Shown here: positions 766-18,456 of the stretch, piece by piece | Position numbering within the stretch: position 1 is the first letter of the stretch | Layout of the letters: every line of letters begins with the position of its first letter | Source: Dunaliella salina | Taxonomy: Eukaryota; Chlorophyta; Chlorophyceae; Chlamydomonadales; Dunaliellaceae | Reading direction: 5' to 3' | Assembly: GCA_002284615.2 (NCBI GenBank) | Contig: MU069542.1 | Span: 4,181 to 22,636, forward strand | DNA length: 18,456 nt | Made by a program: the position numbers and the translations under genes | The notes under the pieces: model-generated | Database searches by the model: none | Seen by the model: the letters and a program-made list of their open reading frames with translations, nothing else | Told to the model about the DNA's origin: nothing

Positions 766-1011
766 AGACAAGTCTTCAAAAAACGCGTATAGAAATGTCA
801 ACTGTTGAGGAACATGCCCTCAAAGTACCACATAAAGCAGAGGTTCTCCAAGTAAGCACAAGTAAGCACTGAGAAAATGGCACAAGAAGTCTGAGCCCGA
901 ATGCTCATATGTTTGACTCGGGACTCCAGATATTCAGAGACCAAGTGCAAGGAGAGAAATGGTCAGATGCAGATTTGCATGATGTTGGGCAAACAGTTTC
1001 CTTGAAACTCC

Positions 1012-1115
1012 AAAACTACGTAGGTAGAGAAAACTCTCCCTACTCTGTTAATGGAAGACATGAGGGAAGTTAATGCTGATCTGGTAGCACGCGGCTCCAG
1101 GGCACCAGGGATATT
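1012..1115 (-). mobile_element. 3'-terminal fragment of a Dualen-type element (copy F)
   Basis: On the minus strand this ends in ...TACCTACGTAGTTTTG, preceded by a block (AGGGAGAGTTTTCTC) that matches the 3' UTRs of element A (8393-8440) and element B (1627-1690). A further match is CCAGGGCACC against B's CCAAGGCACC. Only about 100 bases of 3' UTR are visible, with no coding sequence, so it reads as a heavily 5'-truncated insertion. No clear target-site duplication was seen. Confidence 0.55.
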
Positions 1116-1616: not shown

Positions 1617-1757
1617 ATAAGAAAGAAAAACTACGCAGGCAGTGAAAACACTCCCCACATCAATGAAGGAAAAGGGGAAACCTAGGGCCAAGGCACCGTG
1701 TATCCTCTTCACCAAGAGAAAGCAGAAGAAAGAAGTCAGTGGGGATCAGGTGGGTTA

Positions 1758-2800
1758 CTAGCAGTAGCCCGCGCTTGACGTCAGGCAAGGTCGACCTTGT
1801 TGAGAGTTGGAAAAGCTTTTCTCGAGAGCACGTCTGGTGCTGGCAAGTTTGTAAGCATACAGGACAGAATGAGCATGAAGCTTCCGGACAAGCTTGGTGG
1901 CCTTGAAAGTGTCAAGACCAAGCTCCTTAAGAGGCTCCAATGTGTGCGGGGTGTAGGTGACTCCTCCCACACCTAGCAGGATAATATGAAGGGTGACTTG
2001 AGCTGAAGCTCTAGAAGATGACGGTAAAGGTTGCAGTGCTGCTGCTTGGAGGCCTGAAGCTGGCTGTAAGGCCGGGTTTCCTCACAGTATTTGACTTCTA
2101 CAAGGTGGATGTGTCGCTGATCTGGGTGGAGCTGACTGGGGTCACGAGCCTTGAGTGTGGGTGGAGTGCCTGTGGCTGGCGCTGAGTCCTCCCTGTTCCC
2201 CTCGCACCCCCCTGTACTTCTCAATTCATAACGAGGATTCGACCTTGGCGCCCTTTTCAGAGGAACAATTAATAGAGCATCAGGCCGGCTGGAAGTGAGC
2301 CTATCCTTATCAGGGAAACGCCGCGGGAAAATATATTTGGGAAGGGTCCTATTAGTAGCATGTTCTGGGATCTGTAGGTCTTGCAAGGTAAGACGGTCTG
2401 CACTGCCAGTGTCCATGGAGGCAATACCTGCCCCAAGAGGGCCTTTGCTGATGGCTTTTAGGAGGATTCTGCTGGCAATATCATGTCTCTCAGTTACCAT
2501 ACCAGACATGGTTGAATTTTTGCATCCTGATCAGATGTGAAGGGCACTGTCAAGTCCCTCACAGAGGGGGTATTGTGGGCTGGTGGGAATTTTGAAGCGC
2601 ACTGCGTGTTTTTGATTGAAGAGGGTACCTGTGCGGTATTTAAAAATGTTCTGCCTCAATTTGGAAGAGAGTGTTGACATGGTCCAGAAGGCATTGCTGA
2701 TATTTTTGTGGGTGTGGGGAAGCAAACTTAGGTAGAAAGAGTTCCCTGTGTTGGTGTTGGCCTTTCCAAGTCTGTGTTTTGAGTGCATGTGTTTCCGCAA
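1758..2800 (-). pseudogene. Element B: zinc knuckle plus restriction-like endonuclease C-terminal domain
   Basis: C-terminal module of the element B polyprotein. On the minus strand the order is: a conserved lead-in (YRTGTLFNQKHAVRFK), a degraded zinc knuckle (YPLC-x4-DSALH-x4-C; the first Cys appears changed to Tyr), ERHDIASRILLKA, then SRPDALLI (codons at 2279-2287) and HLVEVKYCEETRP (EVKYC at 2084-2098). The spacing of a zinc knuckle, an RHN/RHD motif, R/KPD and E-x-K follows the restriction-like endonuclease of R2-type and Dualen elements. The end GVGGVTYTPHTLEPL...KLHAHSVLYA...TRRALE is also conserved in elements A and D. The frame breaks near 2530 and 1972, so it is a pseudogene. Catalysis is inferred from the motifs only. 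Confidence 0.65.
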
Positions 2801-2899: not shown

Positions 2900-3400
2900 C
2901 CAGGTGGTGTCATGAAAAGGATTGCCTTCAAGGTTTGCACATGGGAAGGTTAAAACTGTGTCATTATTCTGAATGGCCTGATGCTTAGCAATGGCATCTG
3001 CGCATTCGTTGCCAACAATGCCAGCATGAAATTTAACATTGAAAAAATGGATAGGAGTAGGTGAGTTGCATACCAGTTGTATGATTATCTTGAGGATGTG
3101 GCCCTGGACATGCTGGTGATGAAGTTCTGGGTAGAGTATTTGCTTTCTGATCTGTTCTGGGGAGCAAAGGCTGTCAGTGGCGGTGTAACGATATCCTAGG
3201 AGAATGGCTGCTGCTATTGCCGCCAGTCTGGCTCTAGTGATGGTGTGAGTGATTCCTGCTCCATTTGGTTGGACATGGTTGGTGCTGTCGCTGGCAGGGT
3301 GGTAGGTGGCCCTGCACCAGTCACTTGTTTACCATTGTATACATGGCAGCTGCTGTCCGTGTATGCCCATTCTCCAGTTTTCAACGTTGCGTACCAGATA
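2900..3400 (-). pseudogene. Element B: RNase H domain, degraded
   Basis: RNase H removes the RNA strand of RNA-DNA hybrids during reverse transcription. The minus strand reads EWAYTDSSC (3346-3363), then after a one-base shift ITHTITRARLAAIAAAI, then TATDSL, and finally HAGIVGNECADAIAKHQ (2998-3036), the classic HxGxxGNExAD ending. The first Asp, the third Asp and the final Asp are present, but the catalytic Glu of RAEL in element A is Arg here (RARL), and TDGS is TDSS. These changes fit long inactivity. The frame stays open from the shift down to about 2531, so the RNase H and the C-terminal domain were one polyprotein. Confidence 0.75.
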
Positions 3401-3569
3401 AGTGCTGGATGATGTGAGAGATGAAAGAGTTTGTTGGCTTTGTGTGGTACTGTGAGAGGTTTGTTGGTGGGCAGAAGAAAGTTTTTTAATTCATTGAAGC
3501 CAATTTCAATTTCTGGGTGTCTTGGATTAAGGACTGGGTCGATGCTAATGTTTCTTTCCAGCCATCTTG

Positions 3570-4364
3570 CTTCACGGATGTCTTGTTTCAGGCCTGTGAG
3601 CCAATTTGAATTGTGTTCATTGAGGCGGACTCTTGCAGCGGAGTTTCAAACAGCAACTATTTGTAGGCTCCAGGAATAATATGGAAGGTCAATTTCTTGG
3701 CTTAGCCAGAAGGGGTGTTGGCATATTTGAGTCTTGTTGAGGGTATGGCTCCCAACGTGCGACAGAAGTGAGGGTAGGCATTCAGGAGTTTAGAGTATGG
3801 ATTCGCGCTCATAGGGCCTCCCCAGCTTGGTAAGAACATGAAAGTTGCTGTGGCATGGATTTGTTGCATGGCAGGAAAAATGGCATGTTTGAGAGTAAGG
3901 TACATCACATGGTCATCGTAAATTGGATGGCATATTGAAAATCCTGAGAATTTGGATGAGAGGCTGTTATGGATGGCTCCGAATACCCTATCTCGAGGGT
4001 GTCCACTCCAGTAGTTGAGGTGGCAGGGGTTGTAGTCTAGGGGAGAGGCCATTTTTTCCTGGGTTACGAGGGACCATTTTTGCATGGCAGTGTGGATATG
4101 ATTTGGTAGGATCTGCATGTATGAATCCTTGATCTTCTTACTTTGTTGCATTTTGTTGTTGAAGGTTGAGCGTAAGAAAAGACCCACGAGCTCGGAGGCA
4201 AAGCTTTGGGGCGGAGGTTGAATTGTGTTGTGGATCCCATTGTCTCTGGCTCTGTTGAATGCAGTGTGGAGGACATTGATGCGCTCAGGGGTTAGCATTC
4301 CTTTGCATTTTCCATCTGTGCCATACATGCATGCCACTTGTTTGGAATGGATTTTTGGTAGCAC
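3570..4364 (-). pseudogene. Element B: PCIF1-like methyltransferase domain with HPIY motif
   Basis: The minus strand reads, in order: an alpha-helical lead (LPNHIHTAMQKWSLVTQEKM), ASPLDYNP, RDRVFGAIHNSLSSKFSGFS, HPIYDD (3912-3929), TATFMFLPSW, and after a TGA (3645-3647) replacing Trp, AVxNSAARVRLNEHN. This follows the order of PCIF1, the cap-adenosine N6-methyltransferase: ASPLN, a D..FG segment, a strand leading into NPPF, EELM, FIVFIPEW, and AVHNTAVLF. The catalytic NPPF is HPIY in both copies of the element, so activity is doubtful or the substrate has changed. It lies between the PHD finger and the RNase H. The family call rests on motif order recognised by eye. Confidence 0.6.
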
Positions 4365-4562
4365 CAGAGGTGGTATTGATGGCGTAGAAGGGGAGTGGGT
4401 AGCATCTGCTCTGGGGTGGGGATCCGTTGTATTGTAGGGTTTGGCCTAATGAGGTCAACTGTTGTGATCCAGAATTCACAGCGGCCAGTTCCATTAATGT
4501 CAGCTTGGGGGCTCGTGGGATTCATGTCAAAGGTGGCCTTGTTGCGGAGTTCCGTGTCTAAT

Positions 4563-5360
4563 TTAAGTGTTTGTCTTGTCTGGGTTTTCAAATCCCTGTC
4601 TTTCAAGGTTGCCTAGCTCAAAGTCAGCAGCTGGAGTGGAGAGGTCTGGTTCATCTTTGCAGGCCTCGAATTGAAAAATGCATTGGTGAGAATTGGGCCA
4701 AGCTTCCCTGATGTCTTCAGGTTCCCAGCTTAACTCACAATCAATGCGTATAAATTCATTGCTGAAAGAGTTTGATTTCCTTTCTAATTTCTCATCTTCG
4801 CTGCGAGGTGTGCATGCAGGGCAGGCCCAATAAATGTTGTTGTCTATATCCTGTCTCTGTGCATCAGAGTAGCATCCGAGCTCCTTCATGCAGCACAAGT
4901 GGTAGGTTCGGTGGCAGACGTCGCAGATGTACATGTCAAGGTAGGGGGGCTCAGAGTTTATGGGCTCTTTGCCGCCATTGTAGTTGCACATCTCACAGCA
5001 GGCGCACTCCATCTCAGTTTGGGCGGCAGGTTTGGTATTGACAGGTGTGAACCCAGCGCGTTTGAACATTGGGGGGGCCCATTTTTCTATGGTCATGGGC
5101 GCTAAGTGGGTCAGGTATTGTTTCTGGTGCTTGGGAGGCTCATTGTTCCTGTCTCTTTTCTTGGCTGTAATGATCCTCCAATCACTGATATGTGTGATAT
5201 CATTTAGGTCGTAGTTGTAAACAGTATTCATTGCGTCTAGGGGGTTCGTTTCCTTTATCAGTTTCTCAATTATTTTTCTTGTAGTGCCAGAGCTCTGTGT
5301 ATTGGGCTGTTTGGCCCAGTGGAGAGATACTAGGGATGGAGAGGTTTGTATTAGTTTCAA
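4563..5360 (-). pseudogene. Element B: PHD-finger region
   Basis: The minus-strand frame holds a textbook PHD finger. CEMC is followed about 20 residues later by CDVC, then HRTYHLCC (giving C-x4-H-x2-C), and finally YWACPAC, where Trp lies two residues before the Cys. This is the full C4HC3 ligand set (about 4812-5012). PHD fingers usually read histone H3 tails. Upstream lies a conserved segment (ITHISDWRI, APMTIEKWAPPMFKRAGF); downstream lies an acidic/charged segment (ELSWEPEDIREAWP, GNLERQGFENP) that is also conserved in element A. The next segment in the polyprotein (about 4292-4606) is in a different frame, so a frameshift separates them. Confidence 0.75.
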
Positions 5361-5399
5361 GAAGCTTTCCCCTCTTTGTTTTCTGTCGGCTGTTTTGTG

Positions 5400-6580
5400 T
5401 GCCTTGGCTAGAGGAAGTGAGAGTCATGGTGAGAGGCTTGGAAGGAGAGCTTGGTTGATGGTGAGTGGGGGGTTAGGTTCTCGCTTTGGTGTTGTAAGGC
5501 CGGGGGATTGGATATTGTTTGGTTGCAGATGCTCTGTGTGTGGAGGGAGCTTGATTGTGACTTGGATCGTGTGCGTTTGCTGGGTGGCTCGTTAGGGGGA
5601 GACACAGCCTGTGGGTCACATCCGTGTGGGGCATCAGGATGGTTAGATTGAGTGGTGGGGAGTGTAAGGTTGGCAGAGGCGGCTCTTTTCCTAATGAAGG
5701 TGGTGGTTGAAGGACTTTCCTGGGTGCAAAGGGGTATTGTTAGTATTGTATCGCGTGCTTGCATGGGTGTGGTGGCAGAGCATGGGGTCTCTGTGGTTCC
5801 TTGCTGTATTTCCTGAGTTGGGAGCAGTAAGTAGTTTTGAGTTGTGTTTTGCACCAGGGAGGTTGCTCCTGTGGTTAGTGTGGTTGTTTGTTTGCTTTTA
5901 GAACGCGTCCTTTTGCTAGGTGGCTTTTTTCAGTCGCATTTATGGCATTTTGAGAAATTGTATTCAGTGGTACAGCTTGGGTGGGAGGCACATCATGTTC
6001 GTTGGCGGCTAGGATTATTGTCAGTGTTGTTAGGGCTCCTTTGGGTTGTGGTTCCTTGTACGTTCTCTTGTGTGGTATCCTGAGTGTTTCCAGGGTTCGT
6101 GCTGGCCTCTTCTGAAGGTGTGGAGGAGGTCTCTTACATGCTGTGAGGAGTGGTGGTCAGGGAAGTGGTGCTCTGGGAAGTGATGTCAAAGGAGGCAGTG
6201 TTTAGGGAGGTGGTGTTCAGGGAGGTTGTCTCTTTTGTGTTTAAGGAGGTGGTGGATTGATTGGTATTTATTCCTGCTGGGTTGGCCTCTTGATTCTGTG
6301 TTGCTTTGTTAGGGTTTTGGATGGGGGCAGTGATTGAAGTATTTGTCAGATTGATGCGGCGGCCTGTAAGCGGGTGCGTGTAGTGGGTCCTGGAGCAGGG
6401 TTGTGTTGGGGGCACTAGTTGTGTTGTGTGTGCCGTTAGAGGGATAGTTCCTGGGCATGGTGAGTTTGGAGATGCGTTGTTGAAGTGTGTGTCTACCAGC
6501 TCGCTTATGTGGCTGTTGTTGATTTGGCGGTACCTGGGGAGGGTGTTAGCTGCAGTATTTTTGTCTTCAAGAATGTTATG
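5400..6580 (-). pseudogene. Element B: low-complexity Pro/Ser/Thr linker with SKRTRS motifs
   Basis: This connects the RT connection region to the PHD region. It is rich in Thr, Ser, Pro, Asn and Gln and split over several frames. PPSKRTRSKS appears twice: in the 5408-5854 frame, and in another frame near 5890-5935 (KKPPSKRTRSKSKQ). Element A carries the same motif twice. Basic KRTR clusters in a disordered region would suit a nuclear-localisation or nucleic-acid-binding role; this is inference. A second shared landmark is YTHPLTGRR (YTHEHTGRR in A). A stretch of TTSLNT repeats lies at about 6150-6255. Confidence 0.55.
6150..6255 (-). repeat. Imperfect tandem repeats encoding TTSLNT units in element B
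   Basis: On the plus strand, variants of GGGAGGTGGTGTTCA recur. On the minus strand they encode STTSLNT, ETTSLNTTSLNT and STTSLTT. Element A has no matching run in its linker, so this is probably an expansion specific to copy B. Confidence 0.6.
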
Positions 6581-7440
6581 TATGATGTCCTGGATTAATT
6601 CTACATTGGGAGGTAGGTTGACTAAGGCTGCCAGCCTGTTTAGGGCTATTTTCCTTTTCTTTTGTAATTTTTGAGTGCTTGTTCTTGAGTTGCGCCACAC
6701 TGATTATGTGGGTTCCGCTATTGGTTGTAAGGTCATGGAGTCCTTGGATGTCCAGACTTAGGAAGGGTTTGGTGACAGGCAATCAGCGTTGGGAAAGAGT
6801 GGGCGGGGGGTTTATGGAGGGAGAGAGCCTCATCAATGATATTAAAGTCATCCAGGAACAGGCTTATGTTTTGTTTTGTGAGGTGGAGCTTGCTTGAGTA
6901 GACACTAATGAGCTGGCGAGCTCTCATGCAGTAGTCAAGTTGGCGCTTAATGCGGTGGTTTGTTCCTTCTCTCTTTGTAAGGTATTCTGTGCCTAGGTCC
7001 TTCAAGTGTTTTACTTGCATCGTGAGGAGGCTCAAAGTGACATTGCGGTGTCCGTTTGAGGGGCCTTCTAAGCTCAGAGTAAGGGCAAGGGCCATGTGCC
7101 TGTGGTATTCCACAGATATTGATGTCACACCCAGTCCACAATTTGAGGTGTCCTCTCGAATCATTGCAGTAGAGTTGCAAGTCCACAGACCGATCTTGTC
7201 TTTAATAATTCTATCCACCATATTATCCCACATCTCAAGGTCTGCAGGGGTGCATGGGGTGACTGCAAAAGAATAAGTCAGGCTGGGTATGATGGCTGTG
7301 CGAATTATCTTTAAAATCAAGCTTGCGGTTAGAGACGTTTCCCTTACGTTTTCTAGCTTTTCTTTGAGGTAACTTGTCATGCACTGTATTTGGTGCTTCC
7401 AATTCAAATTCATGTTCAGTTCTACTCCCAGACAGCAAAA
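6575..7440 (-). pseudogene. Element B: RT thumb and connection region
   Basis: This continues the reverse transcriptase after the palm. The frame starts at NMNLNWKHQIQCMTSYLKEK, the segment that in LINE RTs follows the YLGV-type motif E region, and goes on with IIRTAIIPSLTYSFAVTPCT (thumb-like helices), AMIREDTSNCGLGVTSI and IKRQLDYCMRARQLISVYS. It aligns along its length with the element A region at 12770-13670. It ends in a Lys/Arg-rich segment (KLQKKRKIALNRLAALVNLPP) in the next frame, which leads into the low-complexity linker. No separate enzymatic role is assigned. Confidence 0.7.
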
Positions 7441-8359
7441 AGGTGCGTCTGGTGTGATGAATTGTGCTTTTTTCCTTGTATGTCAATTTTATCTCCAAGC
7501 TGCTGACAAAGAGTCTGGGAGGGCGTCACTCCATTCTTGTCTCTAGGCAAGTGGCCGTATAGGATGCTTGTCACTTTGGTTTTGCTACCGGATATGATGA
7601 GTGCTGCCCAGTTAGAATAGAGTGTAATCTTACGGGCCTGAATTTTAAGGTTTTGAATAGTGTTTGTTTTGCTGAGTAAGTCATCAGCAAAGGAGGCGCT
7701 GCTTAGAATATTGGCCAGGTGTGTGTCCGAGACAGTTTGGTTTTGATTTGGGATGCAGATGTGTTTGTAACCGCGCCCCCCTACATGGAGTCAGCGGAGA
7801 AGGTGTTCCATGTAAAGTAGAAAGAGGAAAGGAGACAATGTGTCGCCTTGGATAGTGCCTCTTTCAACGGCAATTTGTCCAGTATTAGTCCCATTGGCAA
7901 GTCTGATGAGGGTGGTGGCGTATTCGTACAGGTTCTTAACATTGTCTATGGCATCAGTGGGGAAGCCAAGGTCATACATTGTCCATAGCATGCGGTCATG
8001 ATCGGTTGTGTTGAATGCGGAGGTGAAATCCACAATGAGGGCATAGATGTCTTGTCGGAAGAATTTGGCGTTTTTTAAGCTCATGATCACATTTTGGAGC
8101 TGGTGAATTGTATCTTTTTGGTTGCGGAAGCCAGCTTGCGTACTGCTGAGCAGTGAGTGCGCTTCAGCATATTCATTAAGTGTGCTAGTGATGAGGCAGG
8201 TCCAAAGTTTGTAGAGCGTGTCAGCGATTCCTAGTGGTCTGTAGGAGGAAAGGTTAGTTTCTTCTCCTTTTCCCTTGTCTATTAGGATTGTGCTGCTTGT
8301 TTTCCAGTTCACAGGGGTGAGACGCGTGGCCCACATTATGATGAAGAGCTTGTGTATAG
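7440..8359 (-). pseudogene. Element B: reverse transcriptase palm
   Basis: This is the reverse transcriptase that copies element RNA into the nicked target. The minus strand encodes LIDKGKGEETNLSSYRPLGI (motif 1/2 region), STQAGFRNQKDTIHQLQNVI, motif A IVDFTSAFN with its Asp, RGTIQGDTLSPFLFLLYM (motif B), then a TGA at 7791-7793 in place of Trp, LHVGGRGYKH, and motif C FADD (7680-7691). The six-T homopolymer at 7468-7473 is one base short of the homologous frame in A. The missing N-terminal part of this domain lies at about 14927-15020, beyond element A. All catalytic Asp residues are present, but the stop and the frameshift make it inactive. Confidence 0.85.
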
Positions 8360-8368
8360 TGTCTCGGA
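8360..8368. repeat. Target-site duplication of element A, left copy
   Basis: TGTCTCGGA is directly followed by the AAAAG-repeat tail of element A. An identical copy is at 14918-14926. The length suits target-primed reverse transcription. Confidence 0.85.
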
Positions 8369-8392
8369 AAGAAAAGAAAAGAAAAGAAAAGA
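8369..8392 (-). repeat. 3' tail of element A, (CTTTT)n on the minus strand
   Basis: On the plus strand the pentamer AAAAG/GAAAA repeats four to five times between the target-site duplication and the conserved terminus AAAACTACATAGG. Element B shows a decayed version of the same tail at 1611-1626, and element D at 16531-16550. Confidence 0.85.
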
Positions 8393-8499
8393 AAAACTAC
8401 ATAGGCAGAGAAACTCTCCCTACATCAATTAAGGAAGAGGAGACACATTGGCTCAAAAAGAGCCGTGTGCACCCTCCACCACAAAGTATGAAAAAGAGA

Positions 8500-9414
8500 A
8501 TTCTAACGTGGCTCTGGAGGGTTACTAGAAGCTCCTGGTTCTAGAACCTGGCTGTGGGAAGTATTCTTGTTTTCAATAGCTCGGCGTGTGGTGACTAATT
8601 TGTGGGCATATAGAATAGAATGGGCATGAAGTTGTTAAGCAAGCTTCGTGGCATGCTGATGATCCAATCCTAATTGTTTGAATTGCTTCAGGGTATGCTC
8701 AGTGTAAATAGTTCCACCTACACCCAGGAGAATAGGGTGAATTGTAACAGCTTTAGCGTTGATAAGTTTACAAAGGTGTGCATGTTGCTGCTTTGCTGCG
8801 TTCAACTGATGCTCTGGCCTTGTGTCTTCACAGAACTTGGTTTCTTTTAGGTGCACATGGCGTCCATTTGCATGGGGTTCATGGGGTTGCCTCATGTGGC
8901 TAGTTCTGGTGCTCCTCAGTGAGGAGCTGCGCATAGCGTGATGAGAATGGGTAGGAGAAACACCGTTAGAAGTATGTTTGGCATTAAAAGGGGTGATCAG
9001 AACAGCATCTGGTCGACTGGTTTTGAGTCTTTTCCTCTCTGGAAGGTTACGAGGAAAGAGGTAAGCAGGTAAAGTTCTGTTTGAGGCATGTGTAGGGAGT
9101 TGGAGGTTGTGTTGGGCAAGCTTAAAATCGCTTCCTATGTCTGTGTAGACCAGGCCTGCCCCTATAGGGCATTTGCTGAGGGCTTTTGTAATCATTCTGC
9201 CTGCAATGTTATGGCGTTCAGTTTTCATGTCGGAAATGATATGGTTTTGGCAGCCTGAGAGCATGTGTAGTGCGCTGTTCAAATGATGGCATCCTGGGAG
9301 GGGACAAGATGGATCTGTTGACCTTTTGAAGCGTACTGCATGTTTTTGGTTGTAGAGGGTGCCTGTGCGGTACTGCAGAATTGTACGCTTCATGGGTACA
9401 GAAATGTTGGGCAT
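8500..9414 (-). pseudogene. Element A: zinc knuckle plus restriction-like endonuclease domain
   Basis: C-terminal endonuclease module. On the minus strand: LQYRTGTLYNQKHAVRFK, a zinc knuckle CPLPGCHHLNSALHMLSGC (9250-9306), TERHNIAGRMITKAL, SRPDAVLI (RPD about 9006-9014), HLKETKFCEDTRP (ETKFC at 8830-8844), then HPILLGVGGTIYTEHTLKQF. A TAA at 8635-8637 precedes the conserved tail QLHAHSILYAHKLVTTRRAIE, which continues in frame to a TAG near 8503. The zinc knuckle, RHN, RPD and E-x-K order matches R2/Dualen-type restriction-like endonucleases, which nick the DNA target. Except for the premature stop, this is the best preserved copy of the domain in the window. Confidence 0.7.
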
Positions 9415-9429
9415 ATTTCTGAAGGCATT

Positions 9430-9720
9430 GCTGATTTTTTATCTGCTTGCAGTAATAAGTTATGATAGTAAGAGTAGTAGCCTGTTTTGGCATTGGCATA
9501 TCCAAGCTTGTTCTTAGAATGCATGTGGGATTTGAGGGCATCTTGAAGATTGGGGAAATACGTGAGCTTTTGGGCGGGTGGTGGACCTGCAGATGTGCTC
9601 GCAGTATGCACTCTTTCTTCCTTGGCTAACCAGAAAATGTTTGTGAATGGATTTCCACCAGGACCTGCACCTGAGATCTTGGAGGTCTGCTACGTAGTTT
9701 TGGGCTTGCTTTGCCTGATG
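9430..9720 (-). pseudogene. Element A: RNase H to zinc-knuckle connector
   Basis: The segment links the RNase H to the C-terminal endonuclease: AKQAQNYVADLQDLRCRS, then in a second frame KLTYFPNLQDALKSHMHSKNKLGYANAKTGYYSYYHN. Element B has the equivalent NHFSNLHDALRKHMHSKHRLGKANTNTGNSFYL in one open frame. Its conservation between copies shows that it is part of the polyprotein. No known fold was recognised. Confidence 0.55.
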
Positions 9721-9724
9721 TTTT

Positions 9725-10150
9725 GCAATAGCATCTGCACATTCATTTCCAGCAATGCCAGCATGGGACTTCACCTTGTAAATTCGAATGTTGGTATGGA
9801 AGTCTCTAATGAGAGTTGAAATCATTTTGAGGACGTCTCGTTAAATATGCCTCAGGTGTTTCTCAGGGTAAAGAAGTTGTTTACGTATTTGTTGAAGAGA
9901 GGTGACGCTGTCTGATGCAATGTCTGCATGTTTGGTCATGATAGCAGCCGCAATTGCTGCCAATTCAGCTCTTGTGATGGTTTTAGTAATCCCAGCATCG
10001 TCAGGTTCTACAAAGTTCTTGCTGTCAGTGGACGGGCAGTAGACTCCTGCTCCAGTTTCTTGCTTACCATTATGGACAAGGCAGCTGCCATCTGTGTATG
10101 CCCATGTTCTCCAATCAGCAACTTTGAGAGTTAGAATAGCACTGGATTGG
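9725..10150 (-). pseudogene. Element A: RNase H domain, catalytic residues retained
   Basis: All four RNase H catalytic positions can be read on the minus strand: Asp in WAYTDGSC (10081-10098), Glu in TRAELAAIAAAI, Asp in IASDSVTSLQQI, and Asp in SHAGIAGNECADAIAKH (9729-9776), which also has the HxGxxGNE signature. A TAA near 9841-9843 (where element B has Gln) splits the domain. RNase H domains occur in the Dualen, I, Tad and R1 types of non-LTR element; here it follows the PCIF1-like domain rather than the RT directly. Apart from that stop the domain is complete. Confidence 0.8.
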
Positions 10151-10299
10151 CTGGGCACCGAGTCTGTTTCTTGGACGATCATGTGTGGATGTTTAGGGTG
10201 TTTGGAGGCGTGTTGTTTGTCCAATTAGAGACGATCCAGCTTATTGAAACCTGGCATGTGAGCATGCATGGAATGTAGGACAGGGTGGCTGCTGACATT

Positions 10300-11060
10300 C
10301 GTCAGCTTCCACTGTGTGGCTTCTTTCAAATCTCCTTTCAGTACTTGTAGCCGGTCTTTGTTATGGTTGTTGAGATGAACTCGAGCTGCAGTGTTCCAAA
10401 CAGCAAAGATACGAAGGTTTCAGGTATGCTGAGGAAGAGGTATCTCTTGATTAGGGCAGGATTGAGGGGCACTGTAACTAAGTTTTTTGCGAGATATGGT
10501 GCCAAGGTCGTAACAGAGGTGGGGGTAGGCAGTAACAAGTTTGGAGTAGGGGTTGGTGATCATGTCCTTATTCCAAGCCGGAAGGAACATAAATGTAGCA
10601 GTAGCTTCTGTGTTGAGAATGGCAGAGTAAATGGCATGTTTCAAGGCTTGTGTCATGATTCCCTCATCATAAATGGGATGGCAGACTGAGAAGCCTGAGA
10701 ACTTGGATGAGAAGGCATTATGCATAGCACCAAAAGAGTGTCTCGGGAGTGCGCACTCCAATAATTCTGGTATTGTGGGTTGTGGTCTAGTGGGGAGGCC
10801 ATTTTTTCTTGTGTTACCAAAGCCCATTTTTGGAGGGCAGTATGAATGTGAGTTGGAAGGGCTCGTGAGAAAGAGTCTTTGATCTTCTTGCTAGAGTACT
10901 TTCTCTCAAGCATGGATTTGCGAGAAAGAAGCCCTTGCAGCTCAGTAGCAAAGCTACCAGGAGCTGGTGTTATTGTCTCGTGCATGCCAGCAAGCTTGGC
11001 CCCATAAAACAGCCATGTAGAGGATTTGGAAGCGGTTTGGGGATATCATGCCAACACACT
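10300..11060 (-). pseudogene. Element A: PCIF1-like methyltransferase domain with HPIY motif
   Basis: Second copy of the domain described in element B. Minus strand: LPTHIHTALQKWALVTQEKM, ASPLDHNPQYQNYWSAHSRD, a frameshift, then LFGAMHNAFSSKFSGFSVC, HPIYDE (10663-10680), ALKHAIYSAI, TATFMFLPAW, and after a TGA, RIFAVWNTAARVHLNNHN. The last motif resembles the PCIF1 segment YKAVHNTAVLFLQN. Because A and B differ elsewhere but both have HPIYD(D/E) and FLP(S/A)W, these residues were probably in the active ancestor and are not chance decay. It may have been a methyltransferase with an altered active site or a noncatalytic RNA-binding relic. Confidence 0.6.
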
Positions 11061-11586
11061 TGCCTTGCGTATTGTAAATGCAAGCCATGTGCGCCGTGTA
11101 TATTTCTGGGAGAATGAGGGGGGATGGAGTAGGAGGGGAATGGCTGTGGGATCCTGTGTCAGATGATGCTAAATAAGGGGATTGCTGATCCGTGTTCTTC
11201 ACGAGGTCAACCTCACGCAGCCAATATTCGCATGAGCCTGTGGGTTTCATGTCCGCTTGTGGATTAGTGGGGTTTGTATCAAAAGTGATTTTGTTGCGCA
11301 ATTCTGTGTCCATTTTCTGCTGCCATACATTGGTTTCATTACGTTTTTCAAAGCCCTGTCTTTCAAGATTTGAGAGGGTAGAATCTGCTGTGGGTGTTGA
11401 GAAGTTCGGCTCGCTCTGTTGTGCTTCAAACTTAAGCAAGCACTCTTTAAACTTGGGCCATGTCTCTTGTAGATCTTCTGATTCCCAGGAGGGCTTCCAA
11501 GTGACCCTCCTGAGTTCTTGTTTAGTCTGTTGTCCTTTTTCAATTTTTTGGGCATCATTTAGGCTTGCACAGGCGGGGCATGCCAT
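11000..11586 (-). pseudogene. Element A: segment between PHD finger and PCIF1-like domain
   Basis: An open minus-strand frame begins at the last PHD ligands (MACPAC) and continues through LRRVTWKPSWESEDLQETWP, STLSNLERQGFEKRNETN, KITFDTNPTNPQADMKPTGS and YTAHMACIYNTQGKCVGMIS. Element B has matching text (ELSWEPEDIREAWP, GNLERQGFENP, ATFDMNPTSPQADINGTG, VACMYGTDGKCKGMLT). No known family was recognised. Strong conservation between the copies indicates a functional linker or the N-terminal part of the methyltransferase-like domain. Confidence 0.6.
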
Positions 11587-12060
11587 GTGTAGGCTGTTGT
11601 AATTTCTTGTCTTTGCTCATCCGAGTAGCATCCAAGCCCCTTCATGCATGCCCAATGGTACGTCCGGTGGCACACGTCACAAACATACATATCAGGAAGT
11701 GGATGCTCCAAGGTTCCAGTTTCATAACTTTGGTAGTAATTGCATATTTGGCATCAGGCACACTCAATATCAGTGCGAGCAGCAGGTGAGACATCTTCAG
11801 GCACAAGGTTAGCTTGTTTGAAAAGTGGCAAGGCCCATTTTTCAATTATCATAGGTGCGTAATGGGTATGGTATTGCACTTGGAGGTGGGCGGGGGAGCT
11901 TGATTGCTCTTTCTTGTTCTCCGCAAAAATTCTCCAATCATCTATGTGAGTAATATCTAAATCACGGTAGAAGATAGAACTGATAGCATGGCTAGCAGCA
12001 TTCTCTTTAGCAAGTTTATCAGCTGTGTCTTTCCTATAGTTCCAGACTTTTGTGCCTTGG
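11560..12060 (-). pseudogene. Element A: PHD-finger region
   Basis: Second copy of the PHD finger. The minus strand reads ECA-stop-CQICNYY, where a TGA replaces the residue before the first ligand pair (Cys in B), then MYVCDVCHRTYHWACMKGLGCYSDEQRQE, and, after a one-base frameshift near the Trp, MACPAC. The ligand order C2, C2, H-x2-C, C-x2-C is complete if the frameshift is ignored. The region before it (DITHIDDWRIFAE, APMIIEKWALPLFKQANLVP) matches element B. Chromatin-tail binding is the usual PHD role and is inferred here. Confidence 0.7.
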
Positions 12061-12770
12061 GAAAGCGAGCTTAGAGAGTGGATAGCTGGGGAAATGATCT
12101 CTCTGTCTGTGTGGAGCAATTGTTGCCTCTTCTTTCTGGGTCTCTTTGTTTGGGTATTTAGGTTGAGCAGAGTNTGAGTTTGTGACTGAGGGTCGAGATA
12201 GTCATCTGTCTGCAGTTGGTGGTTTGTGGTAGGGGGGGGAAGTTGTGTAGTGATATGGTGAGCAGTGCTCAGACAAGCATCTATCATTTGGGTTAGCTTG
12301 GCTGAGTTGGGGTGTGGAAGAGGGGGAATTTCTCAATGCTGAGCGTGTGCGTTTGCTTGGGGGCCCTTCTGCAGTTGTACCTTGTTCAGCAGGAGCCAGA
12401 GTATCCAGGCTTGCAGTGGATACGTATTCAGAGTGGTGAGGTGCTTGCAACAATTGTGTGGGAGTGATGCTTAGTGAAGAATAGGAGCGAGTTCTTTTGC
12501 TGAGTGGCTCCTCCAGTGATTGTACTTCCATAACGTTAACAACTTGTTGTGTTTCAGGACAACTGATGGGTGTAGGATGATTGGCTGTACTTCTGAGGCG
12601 GCGTCCGGTGTGTTCATGGGTGTAGTAAGATGTGGAGCGAGGCTGTGGCGGTGGCACTGCTTGAGTGGGGGGGGATAGGGTTGGGTTGGGGGCTTGTTGG
12701 TTGGAAAACCTGGGTGTGGGGGGGCTGTTCCCCACCCGTGCTTGTATTGGTAAGGCCGCTCACATGTGTG
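12060..12770 (-). pseudogene. Element A: Pro/Ser/Thr-rich linker with two SKRTRS motifs
   Basis: This is a low-complexity segment between the RT connection region and the PHD region. The minus-strand frame 12202-12735 contains EEPLSKRTRSYSS and EGPPSKRTRSALRN, about 40 residues apart, and YTHEHTGRRLRS. A frameshift, probably in one of the G8/G6 homopolymers (12666-12673 or near 12719), joins it to the preceding RT frame. An ambiguous base lies at 12174. Basic clusters in a disordered chain suggest nuclear localisation or nucleic-acid contacts; this is inference. Confidence 0.55.
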
Positions 12771-13670
12771 TCGTTGATGCGACGGTAAACTGGGAGCGTG
12801 TTTGCTTCAGTGCTTTTGTAGGCAATGATCTTTTGGATAGAGGATGTGTTCAATTCTTGTTGTGGGGCAAGGTTGACAAGAGCTGCCAGCCTGTTAAGTG
12901 CAATTTTGCATTTGTTGTTCACCTTGGGGTGTTTAGCCTGAAGTTGAGAAACCGAGATGATGTGAGTTTTGCGAGGAGATGTAAGCACATGCAGCCCACT
13001 GATTCCCATATTCAGCAGAGGTTGCATAATGCAGGTGACGAGAGTAGGGAGGTTGTGTGGAGGTGGCTTGTGCAAGGTAAGGGCCTCACAAATGTGTTCT
13101 AGCTCTTCCTTGAACATACAAGTGCCATTTTTCATGAGATGGAGCTTTCTGGAATGGATGCTAGTGAGCTGGCGAGCACGCATGTTATAGTTGAGCTGAC
13201 GTTTAATGTGCAGATTTGTTCCTTTTCGTTTGGTGAGGTAGGTTTCAGATAAAGTATTTAGGTTTTCTATCTGTTTAGTTAAATGTTTGAGGCTAACTGT
13301 GCGGTGTCTTGCTGAGGGGTCCTCAAGGCTGGAAGAGAGAGCAAAAGCCTGGCGTCTATGNTATTCTACACAGATTGAAGTGCGTCCAAGTCCAAAATTA
13401 TCAGGATCTTCGCGGATCATTGCTGCAGCTGTGCTTTTCCAGAGTTTGTGTTTGTATTTGACCATTCTGTCTATCATGGTGTCCCAGATGATGAGGTCAG
13501 TAAGGGTGCAGGGAGTTACTGCAAAAGAGTTAGCAAGGCTAGGGATAATGGCTGTGCGGACTATGTTTAGCACTTGTCGTGGGGATGCATAGGATGCTTC
13601 AAGTTTATCTAGCTTATTTTTGAGGTTATAAGTCATACGCTGAATCTGGTGCTTCCAATTAAGGTCCATT
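12770..13670 (-). pseudogene. Element A: RT thumb and connection region
   Basis: The minus-strand frame is open from just below the FADD motif down to 12614. It includes FLYLGVQMTMDLNWKHQIQR (motif E region and start of thumb), IVRTAIIPSLANSFAVTPCT, AMIREDPDNFGLGRTSI, IKRQLNYNMRARQLTSIHS, SRKLHLMKNGTCMFKEEL, and a Lys/Arg-rich end (KCKIALNRLAALVNLAPQQE). It aligns with element B at 6575-7440. One undetermined base is at 13361. It is the longest uninterrupted frame in the window (390 codons from its first start codon). Confidence 0.75.
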
Positions 13671-14865
13671 GTCATTTGAACTCCAAGATAAAGGAAGGGC
13701 TCACTTGAGGCGAGGAACTGGGCCTTCTGTCCTTGGATTTCTATTCTTCCCTGCAGTCTTTGATGGAGTGCTTGTGGAGGAGTCACCCCATTGTGATCTT
13801 TTCTGGAATAGCTGTGTAGAATACCGGTAGCTTTAGTCTTACTGCCAGAAATAATGAGTGCGGCCCAGTCAGAGTAGAGGGTGAGCTTTCTGGCTTGTGC
13901 TTTCAGGTCTTGTATTGTGCTAGTTGGACAGAGGAGGTCATCAGCAAAGGCAGCGCTCTAAAGGTTATCTGCAAGGTGGTTGTCAGTGGTGGTTTTGGCC
14001 TGGGACACATCCATGTTTGTAGCCGCGACCTCCGACATGCAGCCAACGCAGGAGAGGCTCCATGTAGAGGAGAAAGAGAAATGGTGAGAGTGTATCACCT
14101 TAAATTGTACCTCTTTCAACGTAAATTTGCTTAGTGCTAACCCCTGAGGGCAGTCTCACTTGAGTAGTGGCATTTTCATATAGATTTTTGACGGTGTCTA
14201 TGGCATCAGTGGGGAAGCTTAAATCGTACATTATCCAGAGCATCCTGTCATGGTCAGTAGTATTGAAGGCTGAAGTGAAATCTACAATGAGGGCATAGAT
14301 GTCTTTTCCGAAAATTTTGGCATCTTCAAGTCCCATGATGACATTCTGGAGTTGGTGGATAGTATTTTTTTGATTCCGAAAACCAGCTTGTGTAGAGCTC
14401 AGGAGGGAGTGTGCTTCTGCATACTCATAGAGAGTATTGGTAACCATGCGCGTCCAGAGCTTGTAAAGCGTGTTGGCTAGACCAATGGGTCTGTAGGAGG
14501 ATATATCTGTCTCCTCTCCTTTGTTTTTGTCAATGAGGACAGTCTCACTCATTTTCCAAGGCACTGGGTTGAGGCGCGTAGCCCACATGATGATGAAGAG
14601 CTTATGAATGCTCTCTTGGATTTCGGGGGAGAGTATTCTAAGGATCTCATTCACTATGCCATCTGGTCCTGGAGATTTATTGTTGCTGAGGGTTTTGATG
14701 CATCCATTAAAGACACTTTTGTCCATGATTTTGGAATGGAGCCAGTCTCTTTGATCCTTCCCTTGTAATTCGTCTTTTGTGATCTTGGATTGTAGAGTAA
14801 CCGGGTCTGGCACAGGGGCAGAGTGATTGGTCTGCTCCCAGGGATAATTACGAGGGGCTTCGTGT
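13670..14865 (-). pseudogene. Element A: reverse transcriptase palm
   Basis: The minus strand encodes NNKSPGPDGIVNEILRIL (fingers/motif 0), LIDKNKGEETDISSYRPIGL, STQAGFRNQKNTIHQLQNVI, motif A VDFTSAFN, ERGTI followed by TAA (14100-14102) in place of Gln in the TIQGD motif, LSPFLFLLYMEPLLRWLHVG, a frameshift, then a TAG and AAFADDLL (FADD 13937-13948). All catalytic Asp residues remain. The region before motif 0 (EAPRNYPWEQ...DRDW-type linker) matches B at 15060-15180, showing that the truncation lies just upstream of the RT. Confidence 0.85.
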
Positions 14866-14914
14866 GGGAGATATTGGGAGATATTGGGAGATATTGGGAG
14901 ATATTGGGAGATAT
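14866..14914 (-). repeat. 10-bp tandem array at the 5' junction of element A
   Basis: The decamer GGGAGATATT is repeated almost five times without error. The innermost unit coincides with element A's own sequence (encoding QYLP, aligned with KYLP in B), so the array is an expansion of the terminal element bases, placed between the truncated element and the target-site duplication. Confidence 0.8.
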
Positions 14915-14917
14915 CCA

Positions 14918-14926
14918 TGTCTCGGA
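14918..14926. repeat. Target-site duplication of element A, right copy
   Basis: TGTCTCGGA, identical to 8360-8368. Beyond it the sequence resumes the RT coding of element B (LLRMLPPEIRD on the minus strand). Confidence 0.85.
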
Positions 14927-15190
14927 TCTCTGGAGGGAGCATCCTCAAGAGCTCATTAGCTATGCCATCCGGCCCTGGAGTTCTGTTGTTGCTCAGAGTC
15001 TTAATGCGTTAGCAGAGGGCACTTTTGTCAAGGATCTAGGAGTGGAACCAGTCTCTTTCTTGTTTTCCCTCTAATTCATCTTTGTTTTTTTGAAACTGGA
15101 GGGTTAAGGGGTCGGGAACATGCGTTAATGCCCCTGCTTGCTCCCAAGGACAACTTCTGGGTGCTTCCTCTGGAAGGTATTTTCCAGTTT
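14927..15190 (-). pseudogene. Element B: RT N-terminal fingers and lead-in
   Basis: The minus strand reads KYLPEEAPRSCPWEQAGALT, VPDPLTLQ, KDELEGKQERDWFHS, a TAG, ILDKSALC, a TAA, RIKTLSNN and TPGPDGIANELLRMLPPEIRD. The copy in A (14640-14865) matches throughout: HEAPRNYPWEQTNHS, DWLHSKIMDKSVF, IKTLSNNKSPGPDGIVNEIL. The two copies side by side look like a local duplication but are explained by the nested insertion. Confidence 0.8.

Positions 15191-18072: not shown

Positions 18073-18456
<384 letters not shown>

Follow-up and report, generated by a model that had tools for sequence, protein, structure and literature searches.

We analysed an 18,456-nucleotide stretch of the Dunaliella salina genome (contig MU069542.1 of assembly GCA_002284615.2, positions 4,181 to 22,636 of the forward strand; the window) and found that two copies, A and B, of a minus-strand non-long terminal repeat (non-LTR) retrotransposon each encode a PCIF1/CAPAM-like methyltransferase-fold domain. 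This Rossmann methyltransferase-fold domain is homologous to CAPAM/PCIF1 and holds a fixed place, after a PHD-type finger and before RNase H, in the polyprotein of a high-copy non-LTR retrotransposon that is R2-like and carries a putative endonuclease. The explanation that best fits the results as a whole is a PCIF1-homologous domain that has been kept by selection and re-tooled for RNA binding, to which we assign a probability of about 0.5. A preliminary description of the window had placed a PCIF1-like methyltransferase-fold domain inside a long interspersed nuclear element (LINE)-type polyprotein, and this was borne out by matches of the Pfam family PCIF1_WW (PF12237) to both copies and to relatives, and by the fold matches of AlphaFold models. 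The domain and its motifs were located in the window as follows.

3562..4364, minus strand: copy A PCIF1/CAPAM-like domain, from the PF12237 match (E 1.4e-4), homologues, motif positions and tblastn with proteins P0005 and P0111.
4049-4035 (ASPLD), 3986-3975 (VFGA), 3932-3912 (CHPIYDD) and 3851-3822 (TATFMFLPSW), minus strand: copy A motifs, located by script.
10318..11115, minus strand: copy B PCIF1/CAPAM-like domain in three frame pieces, from the PF12237 match (E 1.6e-4), tblastn with P0005 and P0111 and motif positions.
10799-10785 (ASPLD), 10683-10663 (CHPIYDE), 10602-10573 (TATFMFLPAW) and 10404-10378 (AVWNTAARV), minus strand: copy B motifs, located by script.

The PF12237 match spanned 3702-4445 in copy A (profile positions 19-146) and 10653-11045 in copy B (profile positions 19-83), both below the gathering score. 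According to the available text of a paper on EVE and DCD domains, this Pfam family is misannotated, being really a CAPAM-like methyltransferase and not a WW domain (PMC7641849). Pfam scans of seven long open frames (E<=0.05), 18 window stretches and protein P0029 revealed no WW domain; these scans did not extend to the 5' region of any intact copy. The PCIF1 motif order previously read in both copies was recovered on the minus strand at the places listed, but two motifs were not intact: the last motif of copy A reads AV*NSAARV (3654-3628), with an in-frame stop and in a frame that differs from the other motifs, and a frameshift interrupts the LFGA of copy B, separating ...RDTLL from FGAM. The reading frame of the copy A domain is broken near 3700, and both window copies are broken. 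Both had also been called full copies; copy A is truncated at its 5' end inside the reverse transcriptase (RT) and hence not full length.

Fold evidence was obtained from AlphaFold2 models of two homologues, P0010 and P0107 (mean predicted local distance difference test score (pLDDT) 58.5 and 63.1). A Foldseek search with these models returned, at E<=1e-3, no PDB matches except PCIF1/CAPAM chains, six for each model. VIA-align comparison to human PCIF1 gave Z scores of 12.1 (170 residues, 4.4 Å) and 11.4 (205 residues, 10.1 Å) for the two models, with RlmJ (Z 6.8, 159 residues, 4.0 Å) and a DUF519 protein (Z 5.6, 143 residues, 4.0 Å) as the best matches other than PCIF1. The matches of the P0107 model covered PCIF1 416-673, and the part upstream of the match was poorly modelled. 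Searches against PDB sequences were less telling. The first family profile returned nothing relevant and no PCIF1, a more diverse profile reached PCIF1 only at E 0.18, ranked behind three PHD-type chains, and one subfamily sequence reached it at E 0.34. Sequence search of the PDB is thus not significant by itself; the PCIF1 claim is carried by the Pfam and fold evidence. The profile alignment to human PCIF1 (E 0.18, alone not significant) placed ASPLD over ASPLN, rDrvFGA over TDGYFGS and CHPiY over ANPPF, in agreement with the earlier pairing of HPIY with NPPF. At residue level the alignment comprised E..ASPL[DN], D..FG and [HN]P.[YF], plus the next helix and strand. The domain presents both the PCIF1-type methyltransferase fold and the ASPL[N/D] and FG motifs, which we take to lie on the S-adenosylmethionine (SAM) side.

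Relatives were numerous in protein databases and in the host genome. A protein search with copy A detected 106 proteins at E<=1e-3, and a search with an alignment of 50 members (A1; 49 database proteins plus copy A) detected 592, 120 of which were listed. Their source labels were jgi, ena, ncbi, metaclust and eukprot; entries from the last carry the name Pelagomonas_calceolata (label unverified). PF12237 matched 32 of the 50 A1 members at E<=0.1, with a best E of 4.3e-10. A profile search of the host assembly (285 Mb, 1403 contigs) with PF12237 gave 881 first-look candidates, and all of the best 150 that were scored lay above the Pfam gathering score. The same search of 14 control genomes of unstated kinds gave no match in any. 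Searching the host genome with the RT of copy A gave 2276 first-look candidates, with 151 matches counted from the 150 scored; both copy counts are lower bounds. The PCIF1-like domain is thus general to the retrotransposon family, and the element is high-copy in the host genome. These results agree with two earlier expectations, that profile searches would return a methyltransferase and that other copies of the family would carry the domain. A search for longer proteins with P0111 returned three proteins, P0111 itself included, from 622 candidates, and a scan of viral contigs for relatives gave five pattern matches, none of which was confirmed. A DNA pattern for FEANPPF, aimed at the host PCIF1 gene, had no match in the host genome, which is no proof of absence.

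Domain order was assessed at 50 genomic loci, 45 of them distinct; five that repeated other places were dropped, and L027 and L028, which have near-identical domains, were both kept. The polyprotein order was constant: RT, PHD-type finger, PCIF1-like domain, RNase H, and a CCHC knuckle with a PD..ExK motif. RNase H lay about 0.6-0.8 kb downstream of the PCIF1-like domain on the same strand at 43 of the 45 loci, and the PHD-type finger about 0.9 kb upstream on the same strand at 32 (1.4 kb at one). At 38 loci the endonuclease domain followed the PCIF1-like domain at 1.0-2.1 kb, also on the same strand. RT was within range at 6 of 20 ten-kilobase loci; many copies are truncated at the 5' end, and a further 30 loci, each about 3.4 kb long, cannot show every part. 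The full order from RT to endonuclease was seen at L031, L043 and L048 (HPIY subfamily, L031 reading RPIY), L032 (HPPH) and L042 (HPPY). A single open frame held both PF12237 and RNase H in L050 (1401 amino acids; E 3.6e-9 and 3.5e-15), L033 and L035. The RT is of LINE/R2 type, with an RVT_1 match and R2 proteins as its best solved relatives (E 5.3e-13), ahead of LINE-1 (1.3e-6). The PHD-type finger was assigned from a C4HC3 pattern and sub-threshold profile matches: the region matched the Pfam KIAA1045 RING/PHD models below the cut-off (E 0.028 in copy A, 2.8e-5 in L033), and the best PDB matches of the family profile were PHD-type fingers, weak at E 0.03-0.7. The CCHC, RPD and ExK motifs of the C-terminal region were read directly within the conserved domain and presumably represent the restriction-like endonuclease (RLE) of R2-type elements, which they resemble. 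This region had no relevant Pfam profile match, and the copy B version had no PDB sequence match. A repeat search with a minimum of 60 bases showed no LTRs, only the two copies against each other.

The catalytic motif was altered across the family. After 9 of 57 genomic rows, which had no motif column, were left out, the remaining 48 (window copies included) read HPIY in 29, HPPH in 9 and HPPY in 3, with another seven forms found in one row apiece. At the position of the catalytic Asn, 44 rows had His, two had Gln and one had Arg; a single row had Asn. Histidine was encoded by CAT in 43 rows and CAC in one; a single base separates each of the four exceptions (Q, Q, R, N) from CAY, which is what copies in decay should show. 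Among database proteins (165 in the set), 41 of 171 rows had no motif column and were left out, and His occupied the Asn position in 121 of the other 130. HPPY was found at L042, L024 and L029, and HPPH at L006, L013, L021, L027, L028, L032, L037, L038 and L049; both subfamilies should help to trace where the domain came from. The preliminary description had dated the Asn-to-His change before the split of the two copies, and His was indeed common to both and to the HPIY, HPPH and HPPY subfamilies, so that by this comparison the change is older than the subfamily split itself. As HPP[Y/H] occurs in two subfamilies, the alignment suggests that Pro at the third position predates Ile. The retrotransposon domain lacks the NPPF motif of the PCIF1/CAPAM family, and we therefore regard the domain as a PCIF1 homologue and do not class it as a PCIF1 enzyme. 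In PCIF1 the catalytic loop is NPPF, and APPA or SPPG mutants serve as inactive forms, as given in the available text of a review (PMC10544176). Because such mutants are dead, loss of the Asn speaks against ordinary catalysis.

Selection was measured on domain alignment columns 96-280. The median ratio of nonsynonymous to synonymous substitution rates (dN/dS) was 0.84 for the most similar pairs (15 pairs, dS<0.05) and fell with rising dS to 0.42 (263 pairs) and 0.29 (204 pairs). At higher dS it was 0.12 (9 pairs, dS 0.5-1), 0.21 (40 pairs, dS 1-2) and 0.25 (494 pairs near saturation). The drop to about 0.1-0.25 in diverged copies indicates that the domain is under selection, and the purifying selection asked about earlier was thus found. 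On these substitution ratios, the pattern is one of post-insertion drift of copies combined with purifying selection on what would be the active source lineages. Between copies A and B dN/dS was 0.12, 0.15, 0.18 and 0.22 in four domain stretches and 0.11 in the RT thumb region; several further stretches had saturated dS and gave no ratio. Excluded from these values were the RT stretch A 8367-7738, which was in the wrong frame (dS 0.15, dN 0.36), and A 2706-2563 and 2844-2719 (dN/dS 1.16 and 1.04), which were possibly in the wrong frame. In a diverse alignment of 27 sequences with 218 ranked columns, the catalytic loop residues S, P, G, C, Y and H ranked 3, 4, 19, 20, 21 and 27 for conservation. 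The loop is therefore among the best-conserved parts of the domain, which argues that the pocket is still in use.

As a mechanism we tentatively propose, at somewhat short of even odds, a re-tooled and probably non- or poorly methylating domain that would bind RNA through its retained SAM/adenosine pocket. This pocket and an RNA-facing surface would engage RNA close to the 5' end, the transcript of the element itself being the likeliest target. The domain would act within the ribonucleoprotein responsible for target-primed reverse transcription, where the PHD-type finger may add a chromatin contact and RNase H would remove the template. A more specific history, which we consider possible and hold with less confidence, is that the lineage captured a CAPAM domain and that the near-invariant Asn-to-His change turned it into an RNA 5'-end recognition or marking module of the reverse-transcription machine.

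Several results weigh against this RNA-binding reading. Both models were poor overall, and the ASPLD-FGA stretch had a pLDDT below 50 in each, too low to judge SAM pocket geometry; the foreseen match to PCIF1 structures was obtained, its SAM-pocket part falling in this low-confidence stretch. Foldseek TM-scores (template modelling scores) were low, at 0.26-0.36 by query length, with root-mean-square deviations of 10.8-16.2 Å. The structural match began only at PCIF1 residue 461-493 for the P0010 model and 416-422 for the P0107 model. According to the same review, the helical domain of PCIF1 recognises the 7-methylguanosine (m7G) cap (PMC10544176); most of it is unmatched here, which weakens a strict cap-binding model. 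No PF12237 match was found at E<=0.1 in 18 of the 50 A1 members, including the modelled P0010. The selection estimates are also affected, as dS was near saturation for diverged pairs and 2-3 between copies A and B, and other loop columns were poorly conserved, ranking 157 (before C) and 138 (after HP) of 218. Finally, HPPY keeps the second Pro and an aromatic residue, so that weak or altered activity is possible.

This last point bears on whether the domain is an active methyltransferase with an altered catalytic residue, methylating adenine or another atom in the element's own RNA, for example near the cap, for stability or to hide from decay or silencing. The retained E..ASPL[DN] and FGA motifs, the P and Y of the HPPY form and the purifying selection on the domain all favour such activity. 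Against it, Asn was present at the catalytic position in one genomic row only, and mutation of that Asn together with the Phe inactivates PCIF1 (PMC10544176, available text); we consider it rather unlikely. If the domain were instead a structural spacer or a protein-protein platform with no ligand pocket in use, loss of the catalytic Asn and the lack of confidence in the pocket region of the models would be accounted for, but six of the 27 best-conserved columns among 218 lie in the loop, a constraint for which a mere spacer would have no use, leaving this unlikely. Action on DNA, by binding or methylating adenine at the target or in new cDNA and so protecting it or marking the insertion, appears less likely again. 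That the resemblance to PCIF1 reflects chance or a generic Rossmann fold only was rejected as highly improbable on the Pfam matches and the fold evidence for PCIF1, even though the window PF12237 scores lie below Pfam's cut-off and the PDB sequence searches found either nothing relevant or PCIF1 only at E 0.18.

The remaining parts of the two copies were assigned as follows. Copy A begins directly after the CTTTT tail of copy B, at about 8367.

7791..8367, minus strand: copy A RT, 5'-truncated; RVT_1 E 1.2e-17, best PDB match an R2 retrotransposon protein (5.3e-13).
6733..7790, minus strand: copy A rest of RT (FADDLL 7674-7691) and thumb/connection, frameshifted; from open reading frames, motif and match to copy B.
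5408..6703, minus strand: copy A low-complexity Pro/Thr-rich linker with KRTRS basic motifs; from the translation.
4812..4997, minus strand: copy A PHD-type zinc finger; C4HC3 pattern, KIAA1045 RING/PHD match below cut-off, same place in 32/45 loci.
2954..3363, minus strand: copy A RNase H (YTDSSC 3346-3363, NECADAIAKH 2981-3010), frameshifted; RNase_H E 0.0013, below cut-off, and tblastn.
1797..2575, minus strand: copy A CCHC knuckle (stop inside) and PD..ExK restriction-like endonuclease (RPDALL 2270-2287); motif inspection and match to copy B.
1622..1660, minus strand: copy A 3' hairpin and CTTT-rich tail; hairpin pattern search.
14100..15008, minus strand: copy B RT N-terminal part; RVT_1 E 1.2e-11.
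12614..13957, minus strand: copy B RT palm end (FADDLL 13931-13948), thumb and following region; open reading frames, motif and match to copy A, RVT_1 only E 0.071.
11569..11760, minus strand: copy B PHD-type finger, frameshifted; CDVCHRTYH 11655-11681, ACPAC 11569-11583.
9691..10224, minus strand: copy B RNase H (YTDGSC 10081-10098, NECADAIAKH 9718-9747); RNase_H E 2.4e-8.
8635..9438, minus strand: copy B CCHC knuckle (9250-9306) and PD..ExK endonuclease (RPDAVL 8998-9015; LKETK within 8827-8856); motifs, domain in 38/45 loci.
8368..8425, minus strand: copy B 3' hairpin and CTTTT tail, with copy A directly next; tail reading and hairpin pattern.

A short hairpin followed by CGTAGTTTTTCTTT ends the copies (window 1622-1660, 8388-8425 and 1007-1045, minus strand). 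Across the window and the loci 27 such sites were found by a pattern that itself demanded the flanking stem bases, and one inner pair was A-T in 21, T-A in 4 and G-T in 2. From this base-pair exchange, the 3' end is a predicted covarying stem-loop like those that LINE RTs recognise. The third site belongs to a short stretch at 1007-1200 with the same 3' hairpin end, which is either a truncated copy or a short interspersed nuclear element that borrowed the element's 3' end. The RT of copy B holds five perfect copies of a 10-bp repeat (14865-14914), adjoined by a duplicated RT stretch. Upstream of the PHD-type finger, 11754-12332 (minus strand) matched ANAPC10/DOC above the Pfam cut-off (23.4 bits, E 5.4e-5). 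The match in the same region of L033 was weak (E 0.014), none was seen at E<=0.05 in the other six long frames, not all of which reach the region, and the match is probably due to chance. Beside the retrotransposon cluster, 18073-18456 (minus strand) holds what we take by eye to be a histone H3 gene, and about 120-240 may include a PCID2-like exon.

No description of a retrotransposon with a PCIF1/CAPAM-like domain was found among the entries listed from the open-access literature searched, which covers neither most subscription papers nor Repbase, so that an earlier notice is possible. The likeliest place for one would be a survey of adenine methyltransferases in eukaryotes that appeared in BioEssays in 2016. 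The text of PMC7641849, as far as available, contained no mention of retrotransposons by the terms searched. The domain shows that CAPAM-type domains are not confined to the capping of host mRNA and have spread, in very many copies, into mobile DNA; with its key catalytic residue swapped, it may have a new way of recognising or marking RNA. A conserved domain derived from a cap methyltransferase within the replication protein also offers a testable handle on how LINE-type elements select their own full-length RNA and complete the copy at the 5' end. If the reading of 5'-end recognition or marking is true, no mobile element before this one would have been shown to carry a domain of its own, derived from a cap enzyme, for choosing its template or marking itself.

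Compared with PCIF1/CAPAM itself, the domain shares the methyltransferase fold, PF12237 and the order E..ASPL[N/D], D..FG, xP.[F/Y], but has HPIY, HPPY or HPPH in place of NPPF, leaves most of the helical domain unmatched, is embedded in a retrotransposon polyprotein and showed no WW domain in the frames scanned. METTL14, a methyltransferase-fold partner whose degenerate catalytic motif serves RNA binding, is a precedent for such re-use, although it belongs to a different family from the PCIF1-like domain. Dualen/RandI elements, which are known from algae, likewise are RLE-bearing non-LTR elements. Dualen carries an additional N-terminal apurinic/apyrimidinic-type (APE) endonuclease (PMC4640811, available text); the element described here was compared without its 5' part. 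Fusion of a CAPAM-like methyltransferase domain to other modules also occurs in choanoflagellate eTudor-DCD proteins (PMC7641849, available text). There are resemblances, too, to R2-like RLE elements (R2, NeSL/Utopia): the RT is nearest to R2 among solved chains, and the C-terminal CCHC and PD..ExK-like motif and the short 3' hairpin and tail are shared. Utopia, which in oomycetes has RNase H upstream of the RT, shows that an RLE element can gain RNase H (PMC4640811, available text); unlike R2-like elements, the element in D. salina has an additional PHD-type finger, PCIF1-like domain and RNase H after the RT and before the endonuclease.

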